This document shows, in pieces, positions 8,445-27,641 of a DNA stretch of 33,367 bases (positions are counted from its first letter, which is position 1; each line of letters opens with the position of its first letter). This DNA is from Magnetococcales bacterium (GTDB taxonomy: Bacteria > Pseudomonadota > Magnetococcia > Magnetococcales > JADFWT01). The DNA lies in contig JADFWT010000021.1 of NCBI GenBank assembly GCA_015233785.1, positions 1 through 33,367 of the forward strand, given 5' to 3'. Position numbers and translations under genes: made by a program. The notes under the pieces were generated by a model that was not told the DNA's origin, made no database searches, and worked only from the letters and a program-made list of their open reading frames with translations.

Positions 8445-9869
8445 ATGGGCTGGATACAATCCCTCAAAGAGCGCTTTGTTGCACCCAGGGTCTATGACCA
8501 GATTGACCTGATCGGTGAGGTTCATCTCATGAAGGACGACATGCGCGTCCCGTACACCGGCGTTCCCATTCAGATTATTCTTGGCAAAAGGCGTCGGGGT
8601 AAGAAGCTCTGGATCTGTCCTGAGTTTCTGCTTGATGCGGATGAGGAGGATGCCACGCCTGATTTTATCCTCTTTGACCCAGAGCATTTTTTTCAGGAGA
8701 CCAGTGGCTTTTTGCGTCTGGAGGCGGGGGAGAGCCTGCAACTGGGGCGTGGCGATAAGGAGCAGCAGGCATTTTTCCACTTTTCGCGGGACGTGGCCCG
8801 CAGGCATGTGGCCATTACGCACGATGGTGACGGCATTATTCTCAAGGATCTGACGGCCCGTTCCGGGACGTATATCACGCCGCTGGGCGAAAACCTGGAG
8901 GAGGAGCGGCTGGTCTCTCAGCGCATGAGTCGACTGGGACGGATTCGGCGCATCTACGGAGGCCCTCTTGATCCGCTACCACCCCAGGAGGCGTGCAATA
9001 CCCTCGTCGAGGTCAACGATATTCTCACGCATGAGGGCCAACGTCCTCTGGATCATGAAAGGCGCTGCGGCGGGCTGTTGCAGCTCTCGGACCAGTTGAC
9101 GCCGTTGGTGGTGGGGGATCTTCATGGTCAGGTGGATAACCTGCTGAAAATAATCAGCGAAAATCATTTTCTCGGCGGTCTGGAGAGGGGAAAGATTGCC
9201 CTGATAATTCTTGGCGATGCGGTTCACTCTGAAATCGATGGCCAGATGGATGATATGGCTAGCTCCATGTTGATGATGGACCTTATTTTCAAGTTGAAAC
9301 GGCGCTTCCCGGAGCAGGTTCACTACATTCTCGGCAACCATGACGGCTTCTCTGAGACGGTGATGAAAGCGGGGATTCCCCAGGGATTGTTATGGAAGCG
9401 CCACCTCAAACAGAATCGGGGCCGAGCCTATATTGATCTGATGGAGCGTTTTTATCGTCGTTCGCCATACTGTGTTATTTCTAAACACCTTGTTGCCTGT
9501 CATGCGGGGCCGGCCAAGGGCAAGGTCAGCCGTGAAGATTTGATCAATATGCGGGAGAATCCGCGCCTTATCCGGGAGATAACCTGGAACCGATTGCGTC
9601 GTCCCAACTATCCTCTGGGCTATACGCGTCTAGATGTAGCACGCTTTCGCCGGGGGCTGGAGTTGGTCCCGGAGACCCCCTTTATCGTCGCCCACAACCC
9701 TCTCTCGCGGGATAAATCGGTATGGATGGATATCGACGATATTCCCCACCATCACATCATATTCAGTGGTCTTCCCGATCAGGTGAGCGTCTTTTTCCAG
9801 ATCAAAGGGCAATTGGTGCCTTTGATCTATAAGGCTGAGCCGCTTTTGGGGTTGATCAACCGGATTTGA
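8445..9869 (+). CDS. FHA-domain PPP-family metallophosphatase
   Basis: This is a two-part signalling protein. Residues about 85-150 form an FHA domain, a phosphothreonine-binding module: LQLGRG, VARRHVAI and LKDLTARSGTYI carry its conserved Gly-Arg, Ser/Arg-His and Asn-Gly-like positions. Residues about 220-450 are a PPP-type calcineurin-like phosphatase with metal-binding motifs in order: VVGDLHGQ (224-228), ILGDAVHSE (257-263), ILGNHDG (297-301), CHAGPAKG (His353) and VAHNP (His417). Together these predict a cytosolic phosphatase directed to phosphothreonine-bearing proteins; that targeting is inference. There is no signal peptide. The ATG at 8445 has GGAG six bases upstream. The next gene on the same strand is the caspase-FGE gene, 174 bases later. 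Confidence 0.85.
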   Translation: MGWIQSLKERFVAPRVYDQIDLIGEVHLMKDDMRVPYTGVPIQIILGKRRRGKKLWICPEFLLDADEEDATPDFILFDPEHFFQETSGFLRLEAGESLQLGRGDKEQQAFFHFSRDVARRHVAITHDGDGIILKDLTARSGTYITPLGENLEEERLVSQRMSRLGRIRRIYGGPLDPLPPQEACNTLVEVNDILTHEGQRPLDHERRCGGLLQLSDQLTPLVVGDLHGQVDNLLKIISENHFLGGLERGKIALIILGDAVHSEIDGQMDDMASSMLMMDLIFKLKRRFPEQVHYILGNHDGFSETVMKAGIPQGLLWKRHLKQNRGRAYIDLMERFYRRSPYCVISKHLVACHAGPAKGKVSREDLINMRENPRLIREITWNRLRRPNYPLGYTRLDVARFRRGLELVPETPFIVAHNPLSRDKSVWMDIDDIPHHHIIFSGLPDQVSVFFQIKGQLVPLIYKAEPLLGLINRI

Positions 9870-9902: not shown

Positions 9903-10043
9903 CCAATCCCAACCGAGCACCGTCAGTAGGCTTCACAGCCGGTGTAGGTGTCGCTTTCCTCGCCTGGGTTTGCTCTATTATGATGGAATCGGTTCAAGTA
10001 GGCAGATTTATGAGGGATCATTGTGACGGGTGAGGGGTTAAAT

Positions 10044-11828
10044 ATGAAGCGGATCGGCATCGGCATGCTCATGGTGTGGGTCGTAATAGGGTTGACGGCG
10101 GGTGATCTCTTGAGTGCCACACGGGGGGTCTCGGTGGTAATGCGCAGCAGCGAAAACCCCAACGCCTCCAAACTGCCTCCCGCCCAGCTCTACGAGGAGA
10201 GTCATGCGCTGGTGATCGGCATTGACCGCTACAGTGCCGGATGGCCGCGCCTCTCCAACGCGGTCAAGGATGCCGAACAGGTGGCCGCCGAACTGGAGCA
10301 GCGTGGCTTTCAGGTCACCTTGAAGAGAGATCTCAACGCCGCCGCCCTCAAAGAGGCCATGGAGCGCTTTTTTATTCTTAAGGGGGAGAATCCCAACGCC
10401 CGGCTACTGGTCTGGTTCGCCGGGCATGGCACCACCGAGCATGGTGAAGGGTATCTGATTCCTGCTGATGCGCCGCTGCCCCGGGCCGGAACCCGCTTTC
10501 GGCTTAAGGCGCTCTCCCTGCGGCGCATGGGGGAATATGTTCGTCAGGCGCGCTCCAAGCATCTGTTTGCCGTCTTTGATGCCTGCTTTGCCGGAACCAT
10601 CTTCGAAGGGGTGCGTTCGGCCCCGCCCCCGGCCATTACCCGGGTGACCGCCGCGCCGGTGCGGCAGTTTCTCACCTCTGGCGATGCCAATCAGGAGGTG
10701 AGTGATGATGGGCGCTTCCGGCGTTACTTTCTGGAGGCGCTGCGGGGCCAGCGGCGGGCCGATGCCAATCGTGACGGCTATCTCACTGCCAGCGAGCTGG
10801 GGATGTATCTCACCGACCGGGTGAGCAACCTCACGCGCAACCGCCAAACCCCTCGCTACGGCAAGCTGCGCGATCCCGATTACGACCGGGGGGATTTTGT
10901 CTTTTTGCTGCCCGATACTGCCGCCTCCCCGCCTAAATCCCCCATGCGGCCCGTTGCCCGACAGATTGCCGCCTCACTGCCGCGTGGTCCCGAGAGCTGC
11001 TGGAGTCGGCCCCAGGCCGGTAAAATGTGTCGGGAGCCGCTTGTCGGAATGGCGTTCGTCTGGATCCCCAAAGGGCGCTTTACCATGGGCAGTCCACCTG
11101 GCGAAAAGGGGCGCAAACGGGATGAAGGGCCACAACATTCGGTGGCTCTGGACGGCTTCTGGATGGCCCGCCATGAGGTGACCAACGGTCAGTTGCGCCA
11201 GTTCCATGCCGGGCATGACAGCGGCCACTACAAGGGCCACGCTCTCAACGGCGAGCAGCAACCCGCCGTAAGAGTCAGTTGGGAGCAGGCCAGCGCGTTT
11301 GCGGCTTGGCTAACCGAGCACTCCGCCAGCGAAACCCAGGATCCCCGCTATCGATTGCCCAGCGAGGCCCAGTGGGAGTACGCCGCTCGGGCCGGAAGCA
11401 GAACCGCCCGCTTTTGGGGGGATGATCCCGACGATGCATGCCTTTTTGCCAACGTCGGTGATCGGGCCTTTAAGAAGGGATTTCAGAACTTATACCCTAA
11501 TAAACCAATCCATAATTGTGACGACGGACATATAGTCTCCGCGCCGGTGGGTCGTTTCAAACCCAATAGGTGGGGGATATTCGATATGTTGGGAAACGTC
11601 TGGGAGTGGACGCGAGATCACTACAAACCTACCGCCTATGATCAGCATCGACGGCGCAATCCAGTGATTATCAGCGGCGATCCCAACGCCGAACGGGTGG
11701 ATCGGGGCGGAGGCTATCGCTTTTCGCCGGAGAACGTCCGTGCAGCCGATCGGGATGGTGACCAGCCCGGACTTAAAAACAACGCGCTCGGCTTTCGCCT
11801 GATGCGCGAAGCGGATAGGGGCATGTGA
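10044..11828 (+). CDS. Exported caspase-like (C14) / EF-hand / FGE-sulfatase-like protein
   Basis: The first 25 residues (MKRIGIGMLMVWVVIGLTAG) look like a signal peptide. Residues about 50-235 form a caspase-like domain with its catalytic dyad: His128 in WFAGHGTTEHG and Cys181 in FDACFAG. An EF-hand-type calcium loop, DANRDGYLTASE, follows at about 240-251. Residues about 335-594 form a formylglycine-generating-enzyme/sulfatase-modifying-like domain: MAFVWIPKGRFTMGS, HEVTNGQLRQF, RLPSEAQWEYAARAG, GNVWEW and a C-terminal GGGYRF...ALGFRLMR. In bacteria such FGE folds are often binding or effector modules rather than sulfatase activators. The track start at 10023 is GTG, but ATG 10044 is preceded by TGAGGGG and begins the signal peptide, so I chose it. 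Calcium-controlled extracytoplasmic proteolysis is a reasonable inference. No sulfatase lies nearby. Confidence 0.88.
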   Translation: MKRIGIGMLMVWVVIGLTAGDLLSATRGVSVVMRSSENPNASKLPPAQLYEESHALVIGIDRYSAGWPRLSNAVKDAEQVAAELEQRGFQVTLKRDLNAAALKEAMERFFILKGENPNARLLVWFAGHGTTEHGEGYLIPADAPLPRAGTRFRLKALSLRRMGEYVRQARSKHLFAVFDACFAGTIFEGVRSAPPPAITRVTAAPVRQFLTSGDANQEVSDDGRFRRYFLEALRGQRRADANRDGYLTASELGMYLTDRVSNLTRNRQTPRYGKLRDPDYDRGDFVFLLPDTAASPPKSPMRPVARQIAASLPRGPESCWSRPQAGKMCREPLVGMAFVWIPKGRFTMGSPPGEKGRKRDEGPQHSVALDGFWMARHEVTNGQLRQFHAGHDSGHYKGHALNGEQQPAVRVSWEQASAFAAWLTEHSASETQDPRYRLPSEAQWEYAARAGSRTARFWGDDPDDACLFANVGDRAFKKGFQNLYPNKPIHNCDDGHIVSAPVGRFKPNRWGIFDMLGNVWEWTRDHYKPTAYDQHRRRNPVIISGDPNAERVDRGGGYRFSPENVRAADRDGDQPGLKNNALGFRLMREADRGM

Positions 11829-18677: not shown

Positions 18678-19178
18678 ATGGAGAGCCATGTATTGATTTT
18701 GATCGGAGTGGGGGCGTTGGGGCTCTGGTGGCACTGGGGTATGCGCGCTCGTGAAATCGCCCTGGGGTTGGCTCGGGGAGGATGCCAACAGTATGGCGCG
18801 CGTCTTCGGGACGATACCATTTTGCTCACCTCGCAAAAGCCGGTGTGGTTGAGCGAGGCACGTCGCATGACCATTCGTCGTACCTATGAGTTTCACCTCA
18901 TCGACACCAAGGCCCAGCAGCATACCGGTTGGATTGTCATGGAGGGTGAGGTGCTGGAGTCCATGATGCTTGACGGCACCTCCACCCCGGTTCTCCATGA
19001 GGATCACGAAGCGGGGTGGAGTGAGGATATGGGCGATACACGTGGCTTTGGTTCCAATAAGTGCGGCGGTTTTAAGATCGCCTCCGGTTGTGGAACCGGG
19101 ATGGCGCCGCCGGTGGGAGGATGTGGGTCTAAGGGGTGCGATACAAAGTCGCCTCAGGAGTCAGGTGATGGGGCATGA
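18678..19178 (+). CDS. DUF3301 membrane protein with Cys/Gly-rich tail
   Basis: One N-terminal hydrophobic segment (VLILIGVGALGLWWHW) is followed by MRAREIALGLARGGCQQYGARLRDDTI and LRRTYEF-like text (IRRTYEFHLID), the pattern of DUF3301 proteins, which are about 100 residues long and of unknown function. Here a tail of about 60 residues follows, rich in Gly and Cys (NKCGGFKIASGCG, VGGCGSKGCD). The tail resembles a metal-binding or disordered segment and is not part of the usual family. AAGGAG six bases before the ATG is a strong ribosome-binding site. The 3' end overlaps the tail of the opposing kinase-like gene by 25 bases. Confidence 0.78.
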   Translation: MESHVLILIGVGALGLWWHWGMRAREIALGLARGGCQQYGARLRDDTILLTSQKPVWLSEARRMTIRRTYEFHLIDTKAQQHTGWIVMEGEVLESMMLDGTSTPVLHEDHEAGWSEDMGDTRGFGSNKCGGFKIASGCGTGMAPPVGGCGSKGCDTKSPQESGDGA

Positions 19179-22100
19179 TCTTCGGTCTCCTCCAGCCCAA
19201 GGATTTCCTCCAGTCTGACGCGTCCCGCCTGGACTCGTTGCAACATGTCTGCCTGTAATATTTTTTTTCCTTTCCAAAAGCGCAGGCCGCGCCCGGCGGA
19301 GAGGGATGAAAGCTCATTAAACATGTCCTCAAGCAGTCCAGCGAGTTGAGATGCTTTGTGTTGGCATTGGTTCAACATGCCCTCAAGGCTTTCAACGGTT
19401 TTTGAGGTCTCGGTGAGCGCCTTTTCATTGCGCGTATATTGTCGTTCCAACGACTTGACGGTAGCCTGTAGGGCTTGTTTTTCATTATGGTATTTGGAGT
19501 GAAGTTTTTCCATTTCATCACGCCAATTGGCCTCTTTTCTTGTGATAGTTTTCTGGATAGCAGATTTTTCGGCTTCAATCTGCAAGAGTTTATCGTTAGC
19601 TGATTTGATTTCACCTCTGAGATTAGTTCTTAAATTTGAAAGAATCTCTACTTTATTGCGATATGCTGCCAATTGTTCTTCAAGTTTCTCGGCATTTCCT
19701 TTAATCTTCTCCAGTTCTTCTTTAGCATCTTGCCACTTGTTGTTGGCCAGTTCATGCTCTTGGACCATATTATCAAACTGCTCTTCAAGTGTCAGGTTGG
19801 ATTCCCTGAAGGCCTCTGTTGTTTTTGCGTCTGATCCTTGATTTGAATCTTGCGTGTCGTGTAGCGAGTCATATGCGTCATCGTCATTGAGCCTATTCTC
19901 AATTTTTTCAAACCGTTCCAAAAACCTCAAGGCTCTGGTAGCTGGTCCGGCAGGGTTGGTCTCAGCTGTTTCGGGATTATTGGCAATTCTTAGGCGGTTT
20001 GTACAATAGGGCTTGAAATCGAACTTATTCGAATTCTTGTTAGGTGCCTGTTCTGTTTGAATATCAATGGAATGAAGCTGATCGCTTCGAGATGTACAGG
20101 CCAAGCAGAAATATATGATCAGGGTAAACAAAAGATCATTTTGGCCCACTGCATAGTGAATCAGTTTTAGATCACGCGCACTACCACAGATACGTGCGCG
20201 TGCCTGTGCCGTCTTATCGATATTTTTCTTCCATATGCTGGTGTCAACACCAAGGAGGTTTAGCAGGTCAGATTCATTTTTTATATCTTTATCAAAAAGG
20301 GCGTTGAAAAAACGCTCTCTGAACTCGTCTTTGCTCAGGTGTTCAATAAGGTTTGCAAAAGCTTTTTGGCGATCACTACGATGTTCCATCCTTCTAATAA
20401 CAGGGTCATCTTCATCTCCTTGGCCCATTCCATGTAGTTTTACATATTGAGTGATGCCAAACATGTAGAAGATGTAGAGGGATAGAATACCCAAACTGTA
20501 TAAATCTGACGCCTCGCTCCATTGCTGGAAGATTCGATATCTGGAAATCGGGGTTCGGTTCAGAATTTTACTGATACTATCAAGGGTCATATGGTTGGTT
20601 TTTTTGCCATTACCGCGTTGGATCTCGATCAATACACGGTCCAGCATGATGTGAAATACACGGCTGACGATTACCGCCTGTTCTTCTACGCGTTCCACTT
20701 CAAATAAAAACTCGCGAACCTGGATTTTATCGCCGTTTTTCAGTTCTGCAATCGGGGAGAAAATGCGCTTTCCTCTAGAGAGATAGGCGGGTTCCGTTGA
20801 GGGAATATTGGTGCGCCGATGGGAGATAAAATGCAGCTTGTTGACCTTATCATCCAGCACGAATGAGACCTGATCAAAATCTTCATGTTCACTGGCATCA
20901 CCACGCTCCGGGGCGTAGAAAATGGTTGAACGTCCACCCAGGGGACCCGGTGAAAATTTGGTCTCATCCACGGCCGCATGACTGTTGCTATACCCTAGTG
21001 CGATATCAATCCATTTAAAGCTTTTATGGTCCAGTTCAAGATTATCGCCAAGAAAAGCCATAATGTTGGCTGGCCGCATATCCCCATGGAGGGCATTTTC
21101 CGAATGAAGATAGGCAATGCCCTTGGTAAGGTGTCTCACCAGTTTAACCCATTTTTCCAACTTCCATTTTGCCAGTCGCAACCCGTGGTCTGTTTGATGA
21201 TTATTTGCATCGCGTTGGTCAAGTGAAGTCTCGACATTTTGCACAAGATAGCGTTGCAAATTGACGGTCTGCCAGTTGTATCGTGCAGCGGGGAGAAGAA
21301 ACCACCAACCACCAAGCTTGCTCTCTCTGGCAATCCGGTCCATCTCCAGGCGATTAAACGGAAAGATGTTAAGATCGCGCCATGTATTGCAAGGGGGAGG
21401 CTGTCTAGGATTCTCGGCTTCTGTACTGTTGTGGTCTTGATCCGAGATGGTTTCGCTTTCTTGGGCTTTACTGGCACTTTCAGAGCTCTCTGCAATCGTA
21501 TCTTCACCAACGTTTGTTTCCTGGTGTTCTCCCTTTTCGATTTGTGTTTTCGTCACTTCCGGGTTATACGGGATGAATACCAAGTTATCAATTTTTTCAC
21601 CAGAGCTGTTTTCCGACCCTGGGTAGTCAATATCATTATTTATCTGTGTATGGCGTTCCATGAGAAGCGCATGAAGATCGGATATTGTTTTCCCGCCTTT
21701 TTGCAAACTATCTTTGATCTGATGTTCAAATTCTTCTGGCCAAGCTTTATCCTCACAGATGATGGCAACGCGATATTGGGAGTTTGGCGCTAGGAAGAAA
21801 CCGATGAAATAGTTTGTAAAATCAGTAATTTTATTATTGTATTTCAATTTTGCAGTAAAATTTTTCAGAATGAATCGGCTCGTTTCCGAGCAGGTTCTTA
21901 GAATGCTTGATTCATCAGCCAGACGATCTTGCTGAATCCCCTCATTATAGACAATATCGGCAATATGTAGATTGAGCAGGTCATCGCCCTGCAGTAGACG
22001 AGGAATTCTCAGTGCCTCAGCGTTGCCAAGCCTGTTTTTGATGGCAAGAGTATCCCTTTTCCCAACGTAGAAGATGGATGCCAACGTCCCTTCCGCCTTA

Positions 22101-22468
22101 GGCCCTAATATTTCCCCATTCTTTGGATTAACAAACAGGTAACGTCGTTCAGCCAGAGGGATCCAAGCTGCATTTTTCAGCTGTTCGTACATCTTTGCCT
22201 CGGCCTTCACCTCTCGCTGTCGCTCAAGGGCGGAAAGGGAGATGTTTGGTGCTTTTTCCTTGGCCTTAGATCCATCTGTGGAAGAGTCAACCTTGGTGGG
22301 GGGGTGCTTTTTTGGACCACCTTTTGGTTTGGCTTTGGCAGGTGGCTTGGTAGCACTGTTTTGACGCTTCTTGGGGGAAGAAGCCGAGGTTGTTGTGGCA
22401 CTCTTCTTTCTTGGTGTTTTTGAGGTCGGCTTTGTTTTCGGGGAAGTGGTCTTCTTGGTGGTTGCCAT
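19154..22468 (-). CDS. Kinase-like protein with activation-region insertion and C-terminal coiled coil
   Basis: This 1104-residue protein appears to be a heavily modified Ser/Thr-type kinase. Residues 1-75 are Lys/Pro/Thr-rich, histone H1-like. A possible N-lobe lies near 120-160 (ILGPKAEGTLASIFYV, then ALRIPRL, where the usual VAxK lysine seems to be Arg). About 230 further residues, including a disordered acidic stretch (320-355), lead to the C-lobe: YLHSENALHGDMRPANIM (catalytic loop, 461-468), WIDIALG in place of DFG (Asp kept), and YAPERG (APE). Then about 125 extra residues, beta-rich in part (GDKIQVREFLFEVERVEEQA), are inserted before helix F (ASDLYSLGI, 654-660). Residues 893-1060 form a coiled coil. 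Activity is uncertain because Lys is not obvious. It is the second gene after the cyclase-like gene, and AT-richer than flanking genes. Confidence 0.72.
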   Translation of the reverse strand: MATTKKTTSPKTKPTSKTPRKKSATTTSASSPKKRQNSATKPPAKAKPKGGPKKHPPTKVDSSTDGSKAKEKAPNISLSALERQREVKAEAKMYEQLKNAAWIPLAERRYLFVNPKNGEILGPKAEGTLASIFYVGKRDTLAIKNRLGNAEALRIPRLLQGDDLLNLHIADIVYNEGIQQDRLADESSILRTCSETSRFILKNFTAKLKYNNKITDFTNYFIGFFLAPNSQYRVAIICEDKAWPEEFEHQIKDSLQKGGKTISDLHALLMERHTQINNDIDYPGSENSSGEKIDNLVFIPYNPEVTKTQIEKGEHQETNVGEDTIAESSESASKAQESETISDQDHNSTEAENPRQPPPCNTWRDLNIFPFNRLEMDRIARESKLGGWWFLLPAARYNWQTVNLQRYLVQNVETSLDQRDANNHQTDHGLRLAKWKLEKWVKLVRHLTKGIAYLHSENALHGDMRPANIMAFLGDNLELDHKSFKWIDIALGYSNSHAAVDETKFSPGPLGGRSTIFYAPERGDASEHEDFDQVSFVLDDKVNKLHFISHRRTNIPSTEPAYLSRGKRIFSPIAELKNGDKIQVREFLFEVERVEEQAVIVSRVFHIMLDRVLIEIQRGNGKKTNHMTLDSISKILNRTPISRYRIFQQWSEASDLYSLGILSLYIFYMFGITQYVKLHGMGQGDEDDPVIRRMEHRSDRQKAFANLIEHLSKDEFRERFFNALFDKDIKNESDLLNLLGVDTSIWKKNIDKTAQARARICGSARDLKLIHYAVGQNDLLFTLIIYFCLACTSRSDQLHSIDIQTEQAPNKNSNKFDFKPYCTNRLRIANNPETAETNPAGPATRALRFLERFEKIENRLNDDDAYDSLHDTQDSNQGSDAKTTEAFRESNLTLEEQFDNMVQEHELANNKWQDAKEELEKIKGNAEKLEEQLAAYRNKVEILSNLRTNLRGEIKSANDKLLQIEAEKSAIQKTITRKEANWRDEMEKLHSKYHNEKQALQATVKSLERQYTRNEKALTETSKTVESLEGMLNQCQHKASQLAGLLEDMFNELSSLSAGRGLRFWKGKKILQADMLQRVQAGRVRLEEILGLEETEDHAPSPDS

Positions 22469-22515
22469 TAGAGCCTCATGTTATACTGAAATGCCAATTA
22501 ATTGAATTATTTGTA

Positions 22516-22653
22516 CGTGTTGACATGTGCGTCTATTTGGCCCCTGACAGCGTAAGGATTGCGCTCAAATCCACACGAACTTGGTGGTTCGTTGCTATTT
22601 ATCGCACGTTTATATCCTCTGTCAGGAAACCAAATTCACTCAATGTCAACACG
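22516..22653. repeat. 138-bp foldback (MITE-like or long hairpin) element
   Basis: The outer ends are a perfect 11-bp inverted repeat, CGTGTTGACAT (22516-22526) and ATGTCAACACG (22643-22653). Moving inward, ATTTGG (22535-22540) mirrors CCAAAT (22630-22635), CCTGACAG (22543-22550) mirrors CTGTCAGG (22619-22626), and the centre is ACGAAC-TTGGTG-GTTCGT (22575-22592). The whole stretch can fold into one long imperfect hairpin. The right end lies two bases from the stop codon of the cyclase-like gene. It could be a non-autonomous mobile element, a terminator/attenuator or an RNA-processing structure. I saw no target-site duplication. Confidence 0.7.
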
Positions 22654-22655
22654 CT

Positions 22656-24152
22656 TTAGGTCAGCTGAATGAAAAGCGTGTCTCTGTCAGGATCGGGAAT
22701 ATGCCAATCCAGCGATAAAATATCTCTTGCGCGTTCGTGAGAATAGCCACCATCATCCCACACTTGTGTCAGTATGAGTGTTACCCCCATTGTTCCATTT
22801 TCGGAAAAATGTGCGACAATCTGCTCCCGATTTTCTCCGCCGAGAAGAAACACCGGATTGGTTGCCAGGTTGATATTGCTGGTGGGGATGACATTGCCAT
22901 CTTTAAGAATTCTGGGTCGCGGTGCCATCTTGTCGACTTTGGTAAAAACAAGATGCCAGCGGTCATTGGCCGTCTTGGGCTCGTGAAGTGTCAACTCCCG
23001 CCCCCTATATTGCGTCGTCAGCTGTTTAAGGATGGCGTTATTCTCGTCGGTCTCGCAGATCTTGCCAGAGAAACAAGATTGCAGGAGGCCCGAAATATCC
23101 ACTTCCTCTCGCAAGTCAGCCGTAAGGTGAATGGTTCGCATCTGAGGGGTAGGGCGCTTTAAAAAAGCATGGTTAAGTCCGCGCAGATCTCCACCGACAT
23201 AGACATGCGCTATGCAGGTTCGGTACTCACTAGCCTCCAGACCTTTCAGGGGTTCTGATTCCAAAGGTGCAAGAATGGGGCGGAATGGTGTGTGCAGAAT
23301 GTGGCTTTGCGCATCTAGTTCACCGTCAAGCACGATCTCCATGCCCGGATTGAGCATGAAAAGAGAAGCGCCCTCTTTCCCCATGACTCTGATGGCAGGC
23401 TCAATGTTGAGATATGGAAGACCGCAGGTAAGGGGGAGGGCCTGTAATTTCTCAATAAACGGAACATGGATGCCAATAGAGAGAATGGATCGAGATAGGA
23501 TTTGGTCTTGATTTGGATGGGTCTGTAACTCTCCATTGTGAGTAGATTTCAGGTAAGTTTCCAGACGTTTTGCTGCGATAAGCGCCTCACCATTATGAAG
23601 ACGTATGGCAGGATGATCTTCAGATTTTGAAAGGAGGGTCGTCTGGAGCACTTCTCCGAAAGAGAGGACACCGCGCAGCTGAATTCGAGGGTAATTTTTT
23701 TCAGGTTCATGGCGTTTATGATGGATGAAAATTTGTTCGGCCTCTTGCATGGCGCGTGCCAGTGCCAGGGTCGTCAGGGCAACAGCTTCTGACATGGCCT
23801 CTTCCAGTGATTGCCCCTCTTGACCACGCACCAAACCCCATAACGCATCTCCCGGAGCCCAGATAGCCCCCGATTGAAATGCAGCATGGAGTTGGGATGA
23901 GTTTGCGAGTAGCTTGCACATTGTTGTCAGAACGCGCCCCATGTCGTTGAGGCCGTCACTGCCAAATTTAAGGATGTAGTCTGTAGAGTCTGCAATATCA
24001 ATGGAGTAGCCACCAAGGATCACATCATCTTTGAGTGGCACGTTTGGTGTTGATTGATCTCTTGATGGGCTGGGCATTGGATCGCTTCTATTAGTTGGAA
24101 ATGTGAATGAAGTTGAGGACATATATCGCAAGAAAGTCGATATCCATGGCAA
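22656..24152 (-). CDS. Class III nucleotide-cyclase-like protein with altered active site
   Basis: Residues about 48-200 follow the class III adenylate/guanylate cyclase pattern. YSIDIADSTDYI holds the first metal-binding Asp, AIWAPGDALWGL matches the GDGxxxxF region with the second Asp, IQLRGVLSFGEVL matches the RIGIHxGxV strand, and NGEALIAAKRLETY aligns with GxxVNxAARLE. In the last motif the transition-state Asn appears replaced by Ile, while the Arg is kept. Cyclase activity is therefore doubtful, and a nucleotide-sensing role is possible. Residues 210-498 are not recognised and look beta-rich. No signal peptide or membrane segment is seen. The start is uncertain: Met codons at 24152, 24122 and 24077 all have weak ribosome-binding sites. 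The kinase-like gene follows 187 bases downstream. Confidence 0.55.
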   Translation of the reverse strand: MPWISTFLRYMSSTSFTFPTNRSDPMPSPSRDQSTPNVPLKDDVILGGYSIDIADSTDYILKFGSDGLNDMGRVLTTMCKLLANSSQLHAAFQSGAIWAPGDALWGLVRGQEGQSLEEAMSEAVALTTLALARAMQEAEQIFIHHKRHEPEKNYPRIQLRGVLSFGEVLQTTLLSKSEDHPAIRLHNGEALIAAKRLETYLKSTHNGELQTHPNQDQILSRSILSIGIHVPFIEKLQALPLTCGLPYLNIEPAIRVMGKEGASLFMLNPGMEIVLDGELDAQSHILHTPFRPILAPLESEPLKGLEASEYRTCIAHVYVGGDLRGLNHAFLKRPTPQMRTIHLTADLREEVDISGLLQSCFSGKICETDENNAILKQLTTQYRGRELTLHEPKTANDRWHLVFTKVDKMAPRPRILKDGNVIPTSNINLATNPVFLLGGENREQIVAHFSENGTMGVTLILTQVWDDGGYSHERARDILSLDWHIPDPDRDTLFIQLT

Positions 24153-25576
24153 CTATTTTATTAATATAGTAGTTTAATACCATGCGCCAAAAACAAGATC
24201 AATACATTTTTAGTTTATAATTTCCCATATTCTCCATAATTTGCATGCGATGACTTGTCCTGTTGATGTATGTTGTGAGGTCACATTTTGTATTGAAAAT
24301 CATGAAAACACACATTTTTTCACACTTTTGCAGGGAAATATTTGATGAACATATTGTAAATATCCTTTTGAAGTTATTTTTCTTGTTATTGTGATGTGCG
24401 ATTGGTGTGACAAAGGCATCATGTTTATCATCATCGGTGGATTGTCATCGGAGCGATTCTGTCCGGGGGCGATCTTGTTATTCCGTATTTAGTACAGATC
24501 GGCGTATGGTAGGTGAAGTGGAACGAGGGGCAGCGCGATTTGCGTAGCAGCCCATTCTATTTCAGTCCGGGTATCGTGGCTCGATGGAAGCAGTCACAGT
24601 AGTGCAGAAGCGGTGCATGATTGGGCGCGCATAGTGAACGATTACTGGGTAGACCGCGCGCGCTTTGGCGCTTGTGCTGAATTTATTACCTGCGAGCCAA
24701 AATCATCTCTATGGCGGTTTTTGCGAGACCGGCCGTTCCTGCATCTACCAAACCAGCCGGTTTTGGAGCATGTTCTGTTCCACGCGCTGTTGGTCGGGGC
24801 GGCTGGTTTGCGTCATTAGGACCTGAAGGTGCATTGAGAGAGGTGAGAGTGGTGGCCCTATTTTCATGGTATATGCCACTTTGGTAATGTGTGGCATTAT
24901 ATGATTATTCCGCAATAAAATATGCGATAGATCCAATAAATAAAATAATTATCTCTAGAGAGAGCTCCTGGATAGGGTGGCTAAGATGATCTACTTAGAG
25001 TTTTTGTATATTAATTTTTCACTAGATTCATCAGCTAAAAGTTGTATTTTTCAGGCGCATTCTCGCTTTAATTCTTTGTCGATGGAACTTATCATGCTTG
25101 CTTTGGGGCTGTATGGACATACTGCTTGGTCTGTTCGAGTGGGGTGGGGTAACGGTGTGGGTAAAGTGGGGCCAAAAATATTGAAATAAAGTGGGTAATT
25201 CGAAATAAAAAAGGTGCACTTATTGTGTGTGGTTGGGGGTGATGTTGTGAGGATAGGCCCAATTTATCTTTTTGAAGCGCACGATTTTTTACGTATAATT
25301 TTTCATCTTAATGTTGTATTCATGGGTTGCACGATTTTCTATTTTCAGTATCCTTGAATCAGTCACGTCACTGCAAGGTACCTTTCCTGACCATCTGAAA
25401 ATTTGTGCCATGTGTTGGTGTCTTGTTGGGAGGGTGATGCTTCGCATGCGGTCGGTGCGATGATTTATTGGCCATTTTTTAATATTTGGGCTGGACAACC
25501 AGCACCTTTCATCCGATGATTACATAACAAGATAGTTTTAATGTCTGCATACACAATAGCCAAATAGGTAGGGTCC
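24153..25576. other. Gene-free AT-rich region upstream of mucR, about 1.4 kb
   Basis: No convincing ORF is present. The outer parts (24153-24450 and 24850-25576) are very AT-rich with many T-runs, fitting a regulatory region for the leftward cyclase-like gene and for mucR. A GC-richer island at about 24480-24850 contains a perfect 11-bp inverted repeat and may be a small RNA or a decayed gene. MucR/Ros proteins bind AT-rich DNA and often control their own promoter, so autoregulation here is plausible but inferred. Confidence 0.5.
24749..24810. repeat. Inverted repeat with 11-bp arms
   Basis: CAAACCAGCCG (24749-24759) is the exact reverse complement of CGGCTGGTTTG (24800-24810), separated by 40 bases. 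The RNA from either strand would form a stable stem. No T-run follows, so a simple terminator is unlikely. Confidence 0.65.
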
Positions 25577-26062
25577 ATGTCATCTCCTAAGTATACTATC
25601 CAGGTTCTTCAAGCTTATCTCTCCAAGACCGAGGTGCCGCCGGATGAGCTTCCTGCATTGATCCAGCAAGTACATCGTTCCATCAAAGGCCTGGATGGTG
25701 TGGAAGTTGCGGATGTTTCTGGTGCGCCGGTTGTTGAAGAAACGCCGGTTGGTGAAGCACCAGCCGAAGAGAAGAAGTCGCGCCGTCCCTTGAAGCCCGA
25801 ACCGGTGGTTCCTGTGGAAGAGGCCTTCAATGAGACCTCAGTGGTCTGCTTGGCCTGTGGCAAAAGAATGAAGTCGCTCAAGCGTCACATCAAGACTGCC
25901 CACAAAATGGACGTTGCAACGTATCGTAGCCAGTACAATCTGCCGGAAGATGTGCCAATTGTTGCGCCGTCGTTCTCCAAGCAGCGCCGTGAAGCAGCTC
26001 AGACCATCGGTCTCGGTAAGAAGAGAAAAGGTAAAGGTCGCGGTCCAGCCAAGAAGAAATAA
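25577..26062 (+). CDS. MucR/Ros-family zinc-finger transcription regulator
   Basis: The C-terminal half matches the alphaproteobacterial MucR/Ros family. VVCLACGKRMKSLKRHIKTAH provides the Cys2His2 zinc finger, followed by the typical YRSQYNLPEDVPIVAPSFSKQRREAA helix region and a basic tail (GLGKKRKGKGRGPAKKK) for DNA contact. The N-terminus lacks the compact MucR oligomerisation segment in its usual form. It has a helical start (YTIQVLQAYLSKTEVPPDELPALIQQVHRSI), matching the MucR N-terminal helices, and then an acidic Val/Pro/Glu spacer of about 35 residues that makes the protein slightly longer than usual. MucR proteins are global regulators that often act like H-NS, silencing AT-rich genes. 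That may matter for the AT-rich block next to it. GGTAGGG precedes the ATG. Confidence 0.92.
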   Translation: MSSPKYTIQVLQAYLSKTEVPPDELPALIQQVHRSIKGLDGVEVADVSGAPVVEETPVGEAPAEEKKSRRPLKPEPVVPVEEAFNETSVVCLACGKRMKSLKRHIKTAHKMDVATYRSQYNLPEDVPIVAPSFSKQRREAAQTIGLGKKRKGKGRGPAKKK

Positions 26063-26111
26063 AGCACTCTGTGCCCAGCCTTGAATAAGGCAAACTTGTC
26101 GTAGTTATTAG

Positions 26112-26147
26112 ACGACCCCGCTTTTTATTCACAATAAGCGGGGTCGT
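26112..26147. terminator. Bidirectional terminator between mucR and the lipoprotein gene
   Basis: ACGACCCCGCTT pairs perfectly with AAGCGGGGTCGT across a 12-base loop. T- and A-rich tracts lie on the two sides. It lies between two convergent genes and can serve both. Confidence 0.9.
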
Positions 26148-26165
26148 TCTGTTATTAGGGTCTTA

Positions 26166-26861
26166 TCAGGGCTCGATTTCCCAGCCGCCGTCGTCATCCC
26201 CAAGATCCATTTCAATTTCTGGATCCACCCCGTCAATCTCCTCCACCAGATCCTTCACGGTCTGGTCGTCCATATCGCCGGAGTCCGGATTCTGTGCCTG
26301 GACGCGGCGCGGGGCATTTTTTATGGCCTCGGCATAGACTGCTTGCAGATCGGGATAGAGCATCTGTGCTGCGTTCAGAGCATCCTTGTAGCGGATATCA
26401 CCGCTATGCTTGGCGTAGAGATGGACCGCCATCGCCTCCAGAGTGGCATAGGATTGGTCGGAGCTGCTGGAGATGAACGCCATGCCGCCAATATTTTCGA
26501 TCATGAGGGCGGGGCTGGATGGCGTTGTGGAGGCTTCGGGTTGCTCTGAAAGGCCGCCTAGAAATGACATCAGGTCGTCCGACTCCTCTTCAGCAGCCTC
26601 TTTGGTCTCGGTGCCGGATTCGGTCTTAGCCAATTTGCTGAGTTGATCTGCCCAGTCGCTCAGGTCGCCGTAAGACATGTAGGGCGAGAGAAAGCGGCCA
26701 CTGGTGTCATCAATGGGGGGCGGTGCTTTGAGTGATGATGGCGGCGGAAGATCGCCGGCCTCCATGGTGGGAAAGCCATCGGTAGCACAGCCGGAGAGCA
26801 ATAGCGTGAGAAATAGCAGTATTCCTGCGCGGGGCCAATTGTGGGAGAAGCGGTTCAGCAT
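26166..26861 (-). CDS. Acidic lipoprotein of unknown function
   Basis: The family is not recognised. From the chosen ATG (26861) the product begins with a lipoprotein signal (AGILLFLTLLLSGCATDG), giving a lipid-attached Cys. The mature protein of about 210 residues is rich in Glu/Asp/Ser, with a probable helical region in the second half (SYATLEAMAVHLYAKHSGDI, YKDALNAAQMLYPDLQAVYAEAI) and a strongly acidic end (DLVEEIDGVDPEIEMDLGDDDGG). The track start at 26951 puts 30 poor residues before the signal. ATG 26861 has GAGG nine bases upstream, so it is preferred. Confidence 0.72.
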   Translation of the reverse strand: MLNRFSHNWPRAGILLFLTLLLSGCATDGFPTMEAGDLPPPSSLKAPPPIDDTSGRFLSPYMSYGDLSDWADQLSKLAKTESGTETKEAAEEESDDLMSFLGGLSEQPEASTTPSSPALMIENIGGMAFISSSSDQSYATLEAMAVHLYAKHSGDIRYKDALNAAQMLYPDLQAVYAEAIKNAPRRVQAQNPDSGDMDDQTVKDLVEEIDGVDPEIEMDLGDDDGGWEIEP

Positions 26862-27057
26862 GGGGTGTATAACCTCTGCGGTGAGATCTGGATGGGGGAC
26901 ATCCGGTAGCCAATAGCATAACGGACGCGATGCATAAACGAGTGACACCATTAAAACGGAATCGGGGACAGGGCGTCAATTCCTCTCTGTCCACAGAGGT
27001 GTGGTGCCAGATATAAGCCGCCCACTTCCATGCGAAGGGGGTGGTGCCTAATCCAGG

Positions 27058-27453
27058 TTATGGTGCGACGTAGTACACCGGCGGCGAAGAGGTACAGCAG
27101 TAGGCTGGCGGTGGGGGCTCCGGTATAATGTAAATGGGGCCGGGAATCGGAACCGCCATGTAGTGTCGTGGGGTGTAGAGCATGGTTGCCCGAGCTTGAC
27201 GCTGTCTCAGCGCCTTATTATTCTCTTCCATTTTTCGCATGGCGTAATGCGGTGGGGTGTCGTGGTCCGCTCCGACAACGGCGTGGGCGGTGCGGTTTTC
27301 ATGGGGAAACAGCAGGCCGCCCAGCACTCCGCCTACCAAAGCGCGGATGCCGCTTTTTTGGGGGGTGCCATCTCCCGCCAGAAGATCAGGCGACCAGAGA
27401 AGAGGCAGGCAGGCTAGGGTCAGTGATAACGTCAAGGTGCGTAGTCGTCGCAT
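27058..27453 (-). CDS. Small exported Pro/Tyr-rich protein
   Basis: The family is not recognised. The N-terminus has a clear signal peptide (LRTLTLSLTLACLPLLWSPDLLAG). A short Gly-rich stretch (IRALVGGVLGGLLF) follows, then a charged helix (RKMEENNKALRQRQAR), and a Pro/Tyr-rich end (PIYIIPEPPPPAYCC). The pattern resembles small periplasmic or outer-membrane-associated proteins with a glycine-zipper-like segment. The start at 27453 has GGAG eight bases upstream. The track start at 27474 adds seven residues before the signal and is less likely. Confidence 0.6.
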   Translation of the reverse strand: MRRLRTLTLSLTLACLPLLWSPDLLAGDGTPQKSGIRALVGGVLGGLLFPHENRTAHAVVGADHDTPPHYAMRKMEENNKALRQRQARATMLYTPRHYMAVPIPGPIYIIPEPPPPAYCCTSSPPVYYVAP

Positions 27454-27641
27454 GTCGAGCGCTCCATCAATCATAAAATACGCTGCATTAACGTATAGAT
27501 AAGTAAATATATTGAGACAGAGTGTAACATACCCCCCGTCAAACGGTTTACGGAAAAGTATTCAATAATGGATTTATCGGATCCGATTCATTAAAATTTA
27601 AGCTAATTTTTCTAATTGCGCGGCTTGAGGTGATCAAAGGC

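Follow-up and report, generated by a model that had tools for sequence, protein, structure and literature searches.

Within the window, by which we mean the whole 33,367-nt stretch of DNA that was analysed, two co-oriented genes lie side by side, with gene A upstream, gene B downstream and a gap of 187 nt between them. The genes and the segment that carries them are listed here, with the basis of each call in brackets where there is one.

19154..22468, minus strand: gene B, kinase-like protein P0002, 1104 aa (ORF, Pkinase match, two relatives, A9 profile)
22656..24152, minus strand: gene A, cyclase-like protein P0001, 498 aa from TTG (ORF; no family match)
23538..24032, minus strand: cyclase-like N-terminal region of P0001, residues 41-205 (motif test)
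22516..22656, minus strand: 141-bp MITE-like inverted repeat with TA duplication (fold, copies in another genome, empty site)
19179..27629: 8.4-kb insert; besides A and B it has a ROS/MUCR regulator, two small genes and 1.4 kb of AT-rich DNA

Both A and B are real genes. The first-pass annotation had placed two leftward genes here and called them AT-richer than their surroundings, and both points hold: the reading frames are present, and G+C runs at 0.41-0.50 along the two genes as against 0.55-0.61 on both flanks. A better start for gene A is the ATG at 24077, where translation probably begins, giving a product of 473 aa (22656-24077).

In four loci of relatives, about 74-240 nt separate the DUF3301 gene from the homologue of the gene at 27630 (distances taken between the ends of BLAST matches), and in a fifth the distance is about 1 kb. 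As the same two genes are separated by 8.4 kb in the window, the A-B pair lies within an inserted accessory segment. In the remaining loci examined, a homologue of the 27630 gene was not found. No known defence gene adjoins the pair inside the insert. Between gene A and the ROS/MUCR regulator, 1.4 kb of AT-rich DNA (24153-25576) holds no convincing gene. Elsewhere in the window, the gene at 10023-11828 joins a caspase (Peptidase_C14) domain to a sulfatase-modifying-factor-like one, and that at 8445-9869 joins an FHA domain to a calcineurin-like phosphoesterase; apart from the pair, the latter is the one phospho-signalling gene that was noticed there.

The inverted repeat in the gap between the genes folds with a z of -5.5 and was considered as a regulatory RNA, a reading that was rejected. 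As it has no Rfam match and its copies adjoin unrelated genes in another genome of the same order, the hairpin is most likely a mobile, MITE-like element. Near-full-length copies (22516-22656 in the window, 1501-1635 in L013 and 1501-1630 in L017) have GGGCGTGTTGACATT ends and a TA duplication, and in each of the three the element is placed precisely at the stop codon with which the upstream gene ends, its first base completing that codon, here that of gene A. When the empty site is read, the stop of gene A and the ATG of gene B are 38 nt apart, and the A-B spacing is operon-like once the element is removed.

The following features were delineated along P0002, the product of gene B:

22244..22468, minus strand: basic N-terminal tail rich in Lys, Ala, Pro and Thr, residues 1-75 (sequence)
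21992..22015, minus strand: ALRIPRLL, residues 152-159, probable beta-3 strand by inferred assignment (alignment)
21059..21088, minus strand: catalytic loop HGDMRPANIM, residues 461-470 (Pkinase match, alignment, A9 profile)
20903..20917, minus strand: YAPER, residues 518-522, end of the activation segment (alignment)
20534..20881, minus strand: insert between APE and helix F, about residues 530-645 (alignment, BLASTP)
19298..19852, minus strand: C-terminal coiled coil, about residues 873-1057 (SMC-like coiled-coil matches)

The core of P0002 is divergent and carries the motifs HGDMRPANIM, D-x-A (ID-I-A), YAPER and SDLYSLG. Pfam Pkinase matches it weakly (E 4.9e-5) over residues 438-471, at the catalytic loop, with a score under the curated cut-off, and the A9 profile, made up of P0002 and the two relatives described below, matches solved eukaryotic kinases at E 1.2e-6. 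The HxD...N loop, the DFG-type Asp, APE and the helix-F Asp of the protein kinase superfamily occur in all three members. It is through these motifs, and not through the beta-3 Lys, that P0002 is assigned to the superfamily, and judged by them it is a genuine kinase-like protein. The basic tail, long insert and coiled coil that had been ascribed to it are likewise all present. Its structure prediction, at a pLDDT of 31.5, is too poor to be used.

Relatives of P0002 were sought by scanning the genome contigs of about 85,000 species genomes with the motif HGD[MIL]RP[AES]N, and two full-length proteins having its core and insert in common were recovered. One, at L027, comes from a MAG of the Desulfobacterales and is 38% identical over 244 aa (E 4e-50); the other, at L028, is from a second MAG of an unclassified bacterium (E 7e-10), both E values being calculated relative to the candidate stretches only. 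In single direct BLASTP comparisons, P0002 and P0004 matched P0005 at E 1e-12 and 5e-19, respectively. The alignment of the three members has in common A-x-[RK]-x-PRLL, HGDxRPANIM, the DFG-type Asp, YAPER, a helix-F region with QW and, ahead of the coiled coil, a further conserved region, and the insert motif L-x-x-GD[KR][IV]-x-[VL]R[ED]F-x-F-[ED][VI]E is kept in all of them. Where P0002 has its basic tail, the L027 protein has an N-terminal ATPase (ATPase_2/AAA_16, under the curated cut-offs), and the L028 protein has no N-terminal extension. Next after the L028 gene comes a canonical kinase gene; by eye, the N-terminal part of its product resembles an FHA domain, with no Pfam match there. 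PIN, AEP-TOTE and DDE transposase genes are found near L027 and two integrase-like ORFs (recognised by eye) near L028, and the surroundings of both look mobile.

When plasmids, viral contigs and related genomes (several hundred) were searched with P0001 and P0002 by tblastn and by pattern, generic kinases alone were returned, and no relative of P0001 was found in phages and genome contigs. As the full-length P0002 search was possibly blunted by coiled-coil candidates, it was redone without the coil, and no relative except generic kinases was obtained. Viral scans with motif baits (alignments A2-A7, which include artificial variants meant for pattern choice and do not count as evidence) gave no match, nor did the relatives' sequences as queries against plasmids and phages, and A9 profile searches in 292, 247 and 213 genomes returned the known members only. 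L029-L034 were considered as family members and rejected, their match being confined to the catalytic loop as in ordinary kinases. Gene B is absent from the other related genomes that were sampled, and gene A occurs in 1 of 48 genomes of its class. The pair had been called undescribed, and this is supported by the finding of no relative of P0001 and only two of P0002. Going by the common core and insert, P0002 and the L027 and L028 proteins are an undescribed, very rare kinase-like family in three unrelated bacteria. This kinase, new, rare and divergent by sequence and with neighbours that differ, is the solid finding of the analysis.

The N-terminal region of P0001 has the motif order D-I-x-x-S-T / G-D-A / G-x4-G / G-x7-R-L-E of class III cyclases, with the two metal Asp (D52, D102), the glycine motifs (G161/G166) and the Arg (G188...R196) all in place and Arg196 eight residues past Gly188, as in those enzymes. 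At the position of the transition-state Asn (G+4), which this genome's class III cyclases retain, P0001 has Ile192, and the metal Asp52-Asp102 spacing is 50 as against 44 in this genome's own cyclases and in EaPycC (PMC11224242). The motif pattern was found in 0 of 100,000 shuffles and, in about 150,000 residues from further long ORFs, it picked out genuine cyclases only, figures that are suggestive only as the pattern was composed after P0001 had been seen. For that reason the cyclase-like domain, with its site changed from Asn to Ile, is treated as likely but unproven. An extra match in L025 proved to be a genuine CHASE2-type cyclase; this class III enzyme (L025 2000-6261), in a relative of the same order, has a canonical Ser/Thr kinase two genes away and is unrelated to the A/B pair. 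P0001 has no significant match in Pfam, NCBIfam, PHROGs or PADLOC. Against the genome's own cyclases, hhalign placed it in the expected register at E 0.13, HMMER scores were no better than those of shuffles, and no profile-level similarity to them or to Guanylate_cyc was detected. The earlier claim of a cyclase-like protein with a changed site is compatible with the motif order, and neither the profile comparison nor the structure prediction confirms it.

As our favoured reading, we consider it possible, with a probability of about 0.4, that A and B form a horizontally acquired accessory signalling module, most likely for stress or phage response (conflict), in which a kinase-like part is constant and a sensor part changes. 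The constant part would be the new kinase-like family with its large insert and C-terminal coiled coil, and the sensor part would vary by genome, being the upstream cyclase-like gene here, the N-terminal STAND/AAA-type ATPase in L027 and the adjacent canonical kinase in L028. The cyclase-like protein may bind or make a nucleotide, or serve as a catalytically altered sensor, and would switch the kinase-like protein, which in turn may phosphorylate a target or act as a scaffold via its coiled coil. In favour of the conflict module, we counted the full-length relatives that keep both core and insert, their differing partners at L027 and L028, the retained catalytic residues, the 38-nt gap, the insert junction intact in relatives, the mobile contexts and the sparse occurrence of A and B; the pairing that is not conserved, the unconfirmed cyclase fold, the beta-3 Arg and the lack of an adjoining defence gene were counted against it. 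The analysis shows the genes themselves, the kinase-like core and its insert, the three-member family, the operon-like spacing and the placing of the insert in a variable locus; kinase activity of P0002, the cyclase fold, the A-B interaction and the defence role of the module are what we infer. A defence role is favoured on account of the mobile context and of the analogy to conflict systems that carry kinases (PMC11341870, PMC7159879). A bolder version appears unlikely: an undescribed conflict system would be built around the kinase-like family as its common core, an altered cyclase, a STAND-type ATPase or a partner kinase would serve as interchangeable sensors controlling an atypical kinase, and here the kinase would be switched directly by a nucleotide-binding relative of cyclases.

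The two genes may instead be independent accessory genes in one variable segment, with the kinase-like protein acting alone or with a partner encoded elsewhere, which we regard as conceivable though not probable. The segment is mosaic, its genes being unrelated, and the adjacency is not conserved: by the motif-order test no cyclase-like ORF lies in the neighbourhoods of L027 and L028, and neither genome has a detectable homologue of P0001. The common strand, the original gap of 38 nt and the similarly low G+C argue against independence. The proposal that the genes work together is supported only by their adjacency, with 38 nt between them before the MITE-like insertion. Under the refuting condition that came with it, a lack of conserved gene order, it has so far gained no support, since neither of the two kinase relatives lies near a cyclase-like gene, although two relatives are too few to refute the pairing. 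From the spacing, and without conserved gene order, P0001 is a plausible partner of P0002 in this genome.

Each partner could also be other than it seems. The presumed beta-3 Lys, which anchors ATP, is Arg154 in P0002, Arg in L027 and Lys in L028 (by alignment), and HGDxR replaces HRDxK. Pseudokinases also lack the beta-3 Lys; its absence lowers the claim of an active enzyme, and the P0002 kinase may be inactive. With two of three members carrying Arg and the Pkinase score under its cut-off, a dead pseudokinase scaffold, in which nucleotide binding would reshape the protein and the coiled coil would pass the signal with no phosphotransfer, is a tentative alternative, which the catalytic Asp, Asn and DFG-Asp retained in all three members and the beta-3 Lys kept in L028 speak against. 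That P0001 is not a cyclase and owes its motif order to chance or convergent resemblance seems somewhat unlikely: the lack of support from profile and library searches and an unusable structure prediction (pLDDT 32.5) would fit such an origin, but the motif order and spacing come close to class III cyclases and the shuffles and other ORFs yielded no false positives. If the reading as an acquired module is true, a kinase-based system with exchangeable sensors would join the bacterial conflict systems, and a cyclase-like protein might be tied directly to a kinase in bacteria. The three-member family and its common insert offer a concrete handle for tests of structure and activity.

Among known systems, P0002 has the kinase core in common with the defence Hanks-type Ser/Thr kinases PD-T4-6, MAD6, MkoA (Mokosh) and PglW; its matches to PADLOC defence kinases are weak, centred on the catalytic loop and absent beyond the catalytic region, and unlike those four it has the insert between APE and helix F, the HGDxRP motif, the C-terminal coiled coil and other partners. 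The Pycsar pyrimidine cyclases (PMC11224242) resemble P0001 in motif order, the two metal Asp positions and a compact cyclase-like gene in an accessory locus, but the Asp spacing is 50 and not 44, Ile stands at the transition-state Asn position and sequence similarity is undetectable; the insert encodes no cyclic-nucleotide-gated effector, and PADLOC does not match P0001. Compared with the kinase-kinase-phosphatase (KKP) module of two kinases and a PP2C (PMC11341870), the insert has neither a phosphatase nor a second kinase, there is no cold-shock domain and the neighbour is cyclase-like; the likeness lies in an accessory locus with a divergent kinase and a second regulatory protein, and in the L028 relative beside a canonical kinase. 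The locus is unlike the vWA-MoxR and related NTP-dependent conflict systems (PMC7159879) in having no vWA, MoxR or VMAP component, and like them in that cyclase, kinase and NTPase modules appear to be exchanged around a constant component.
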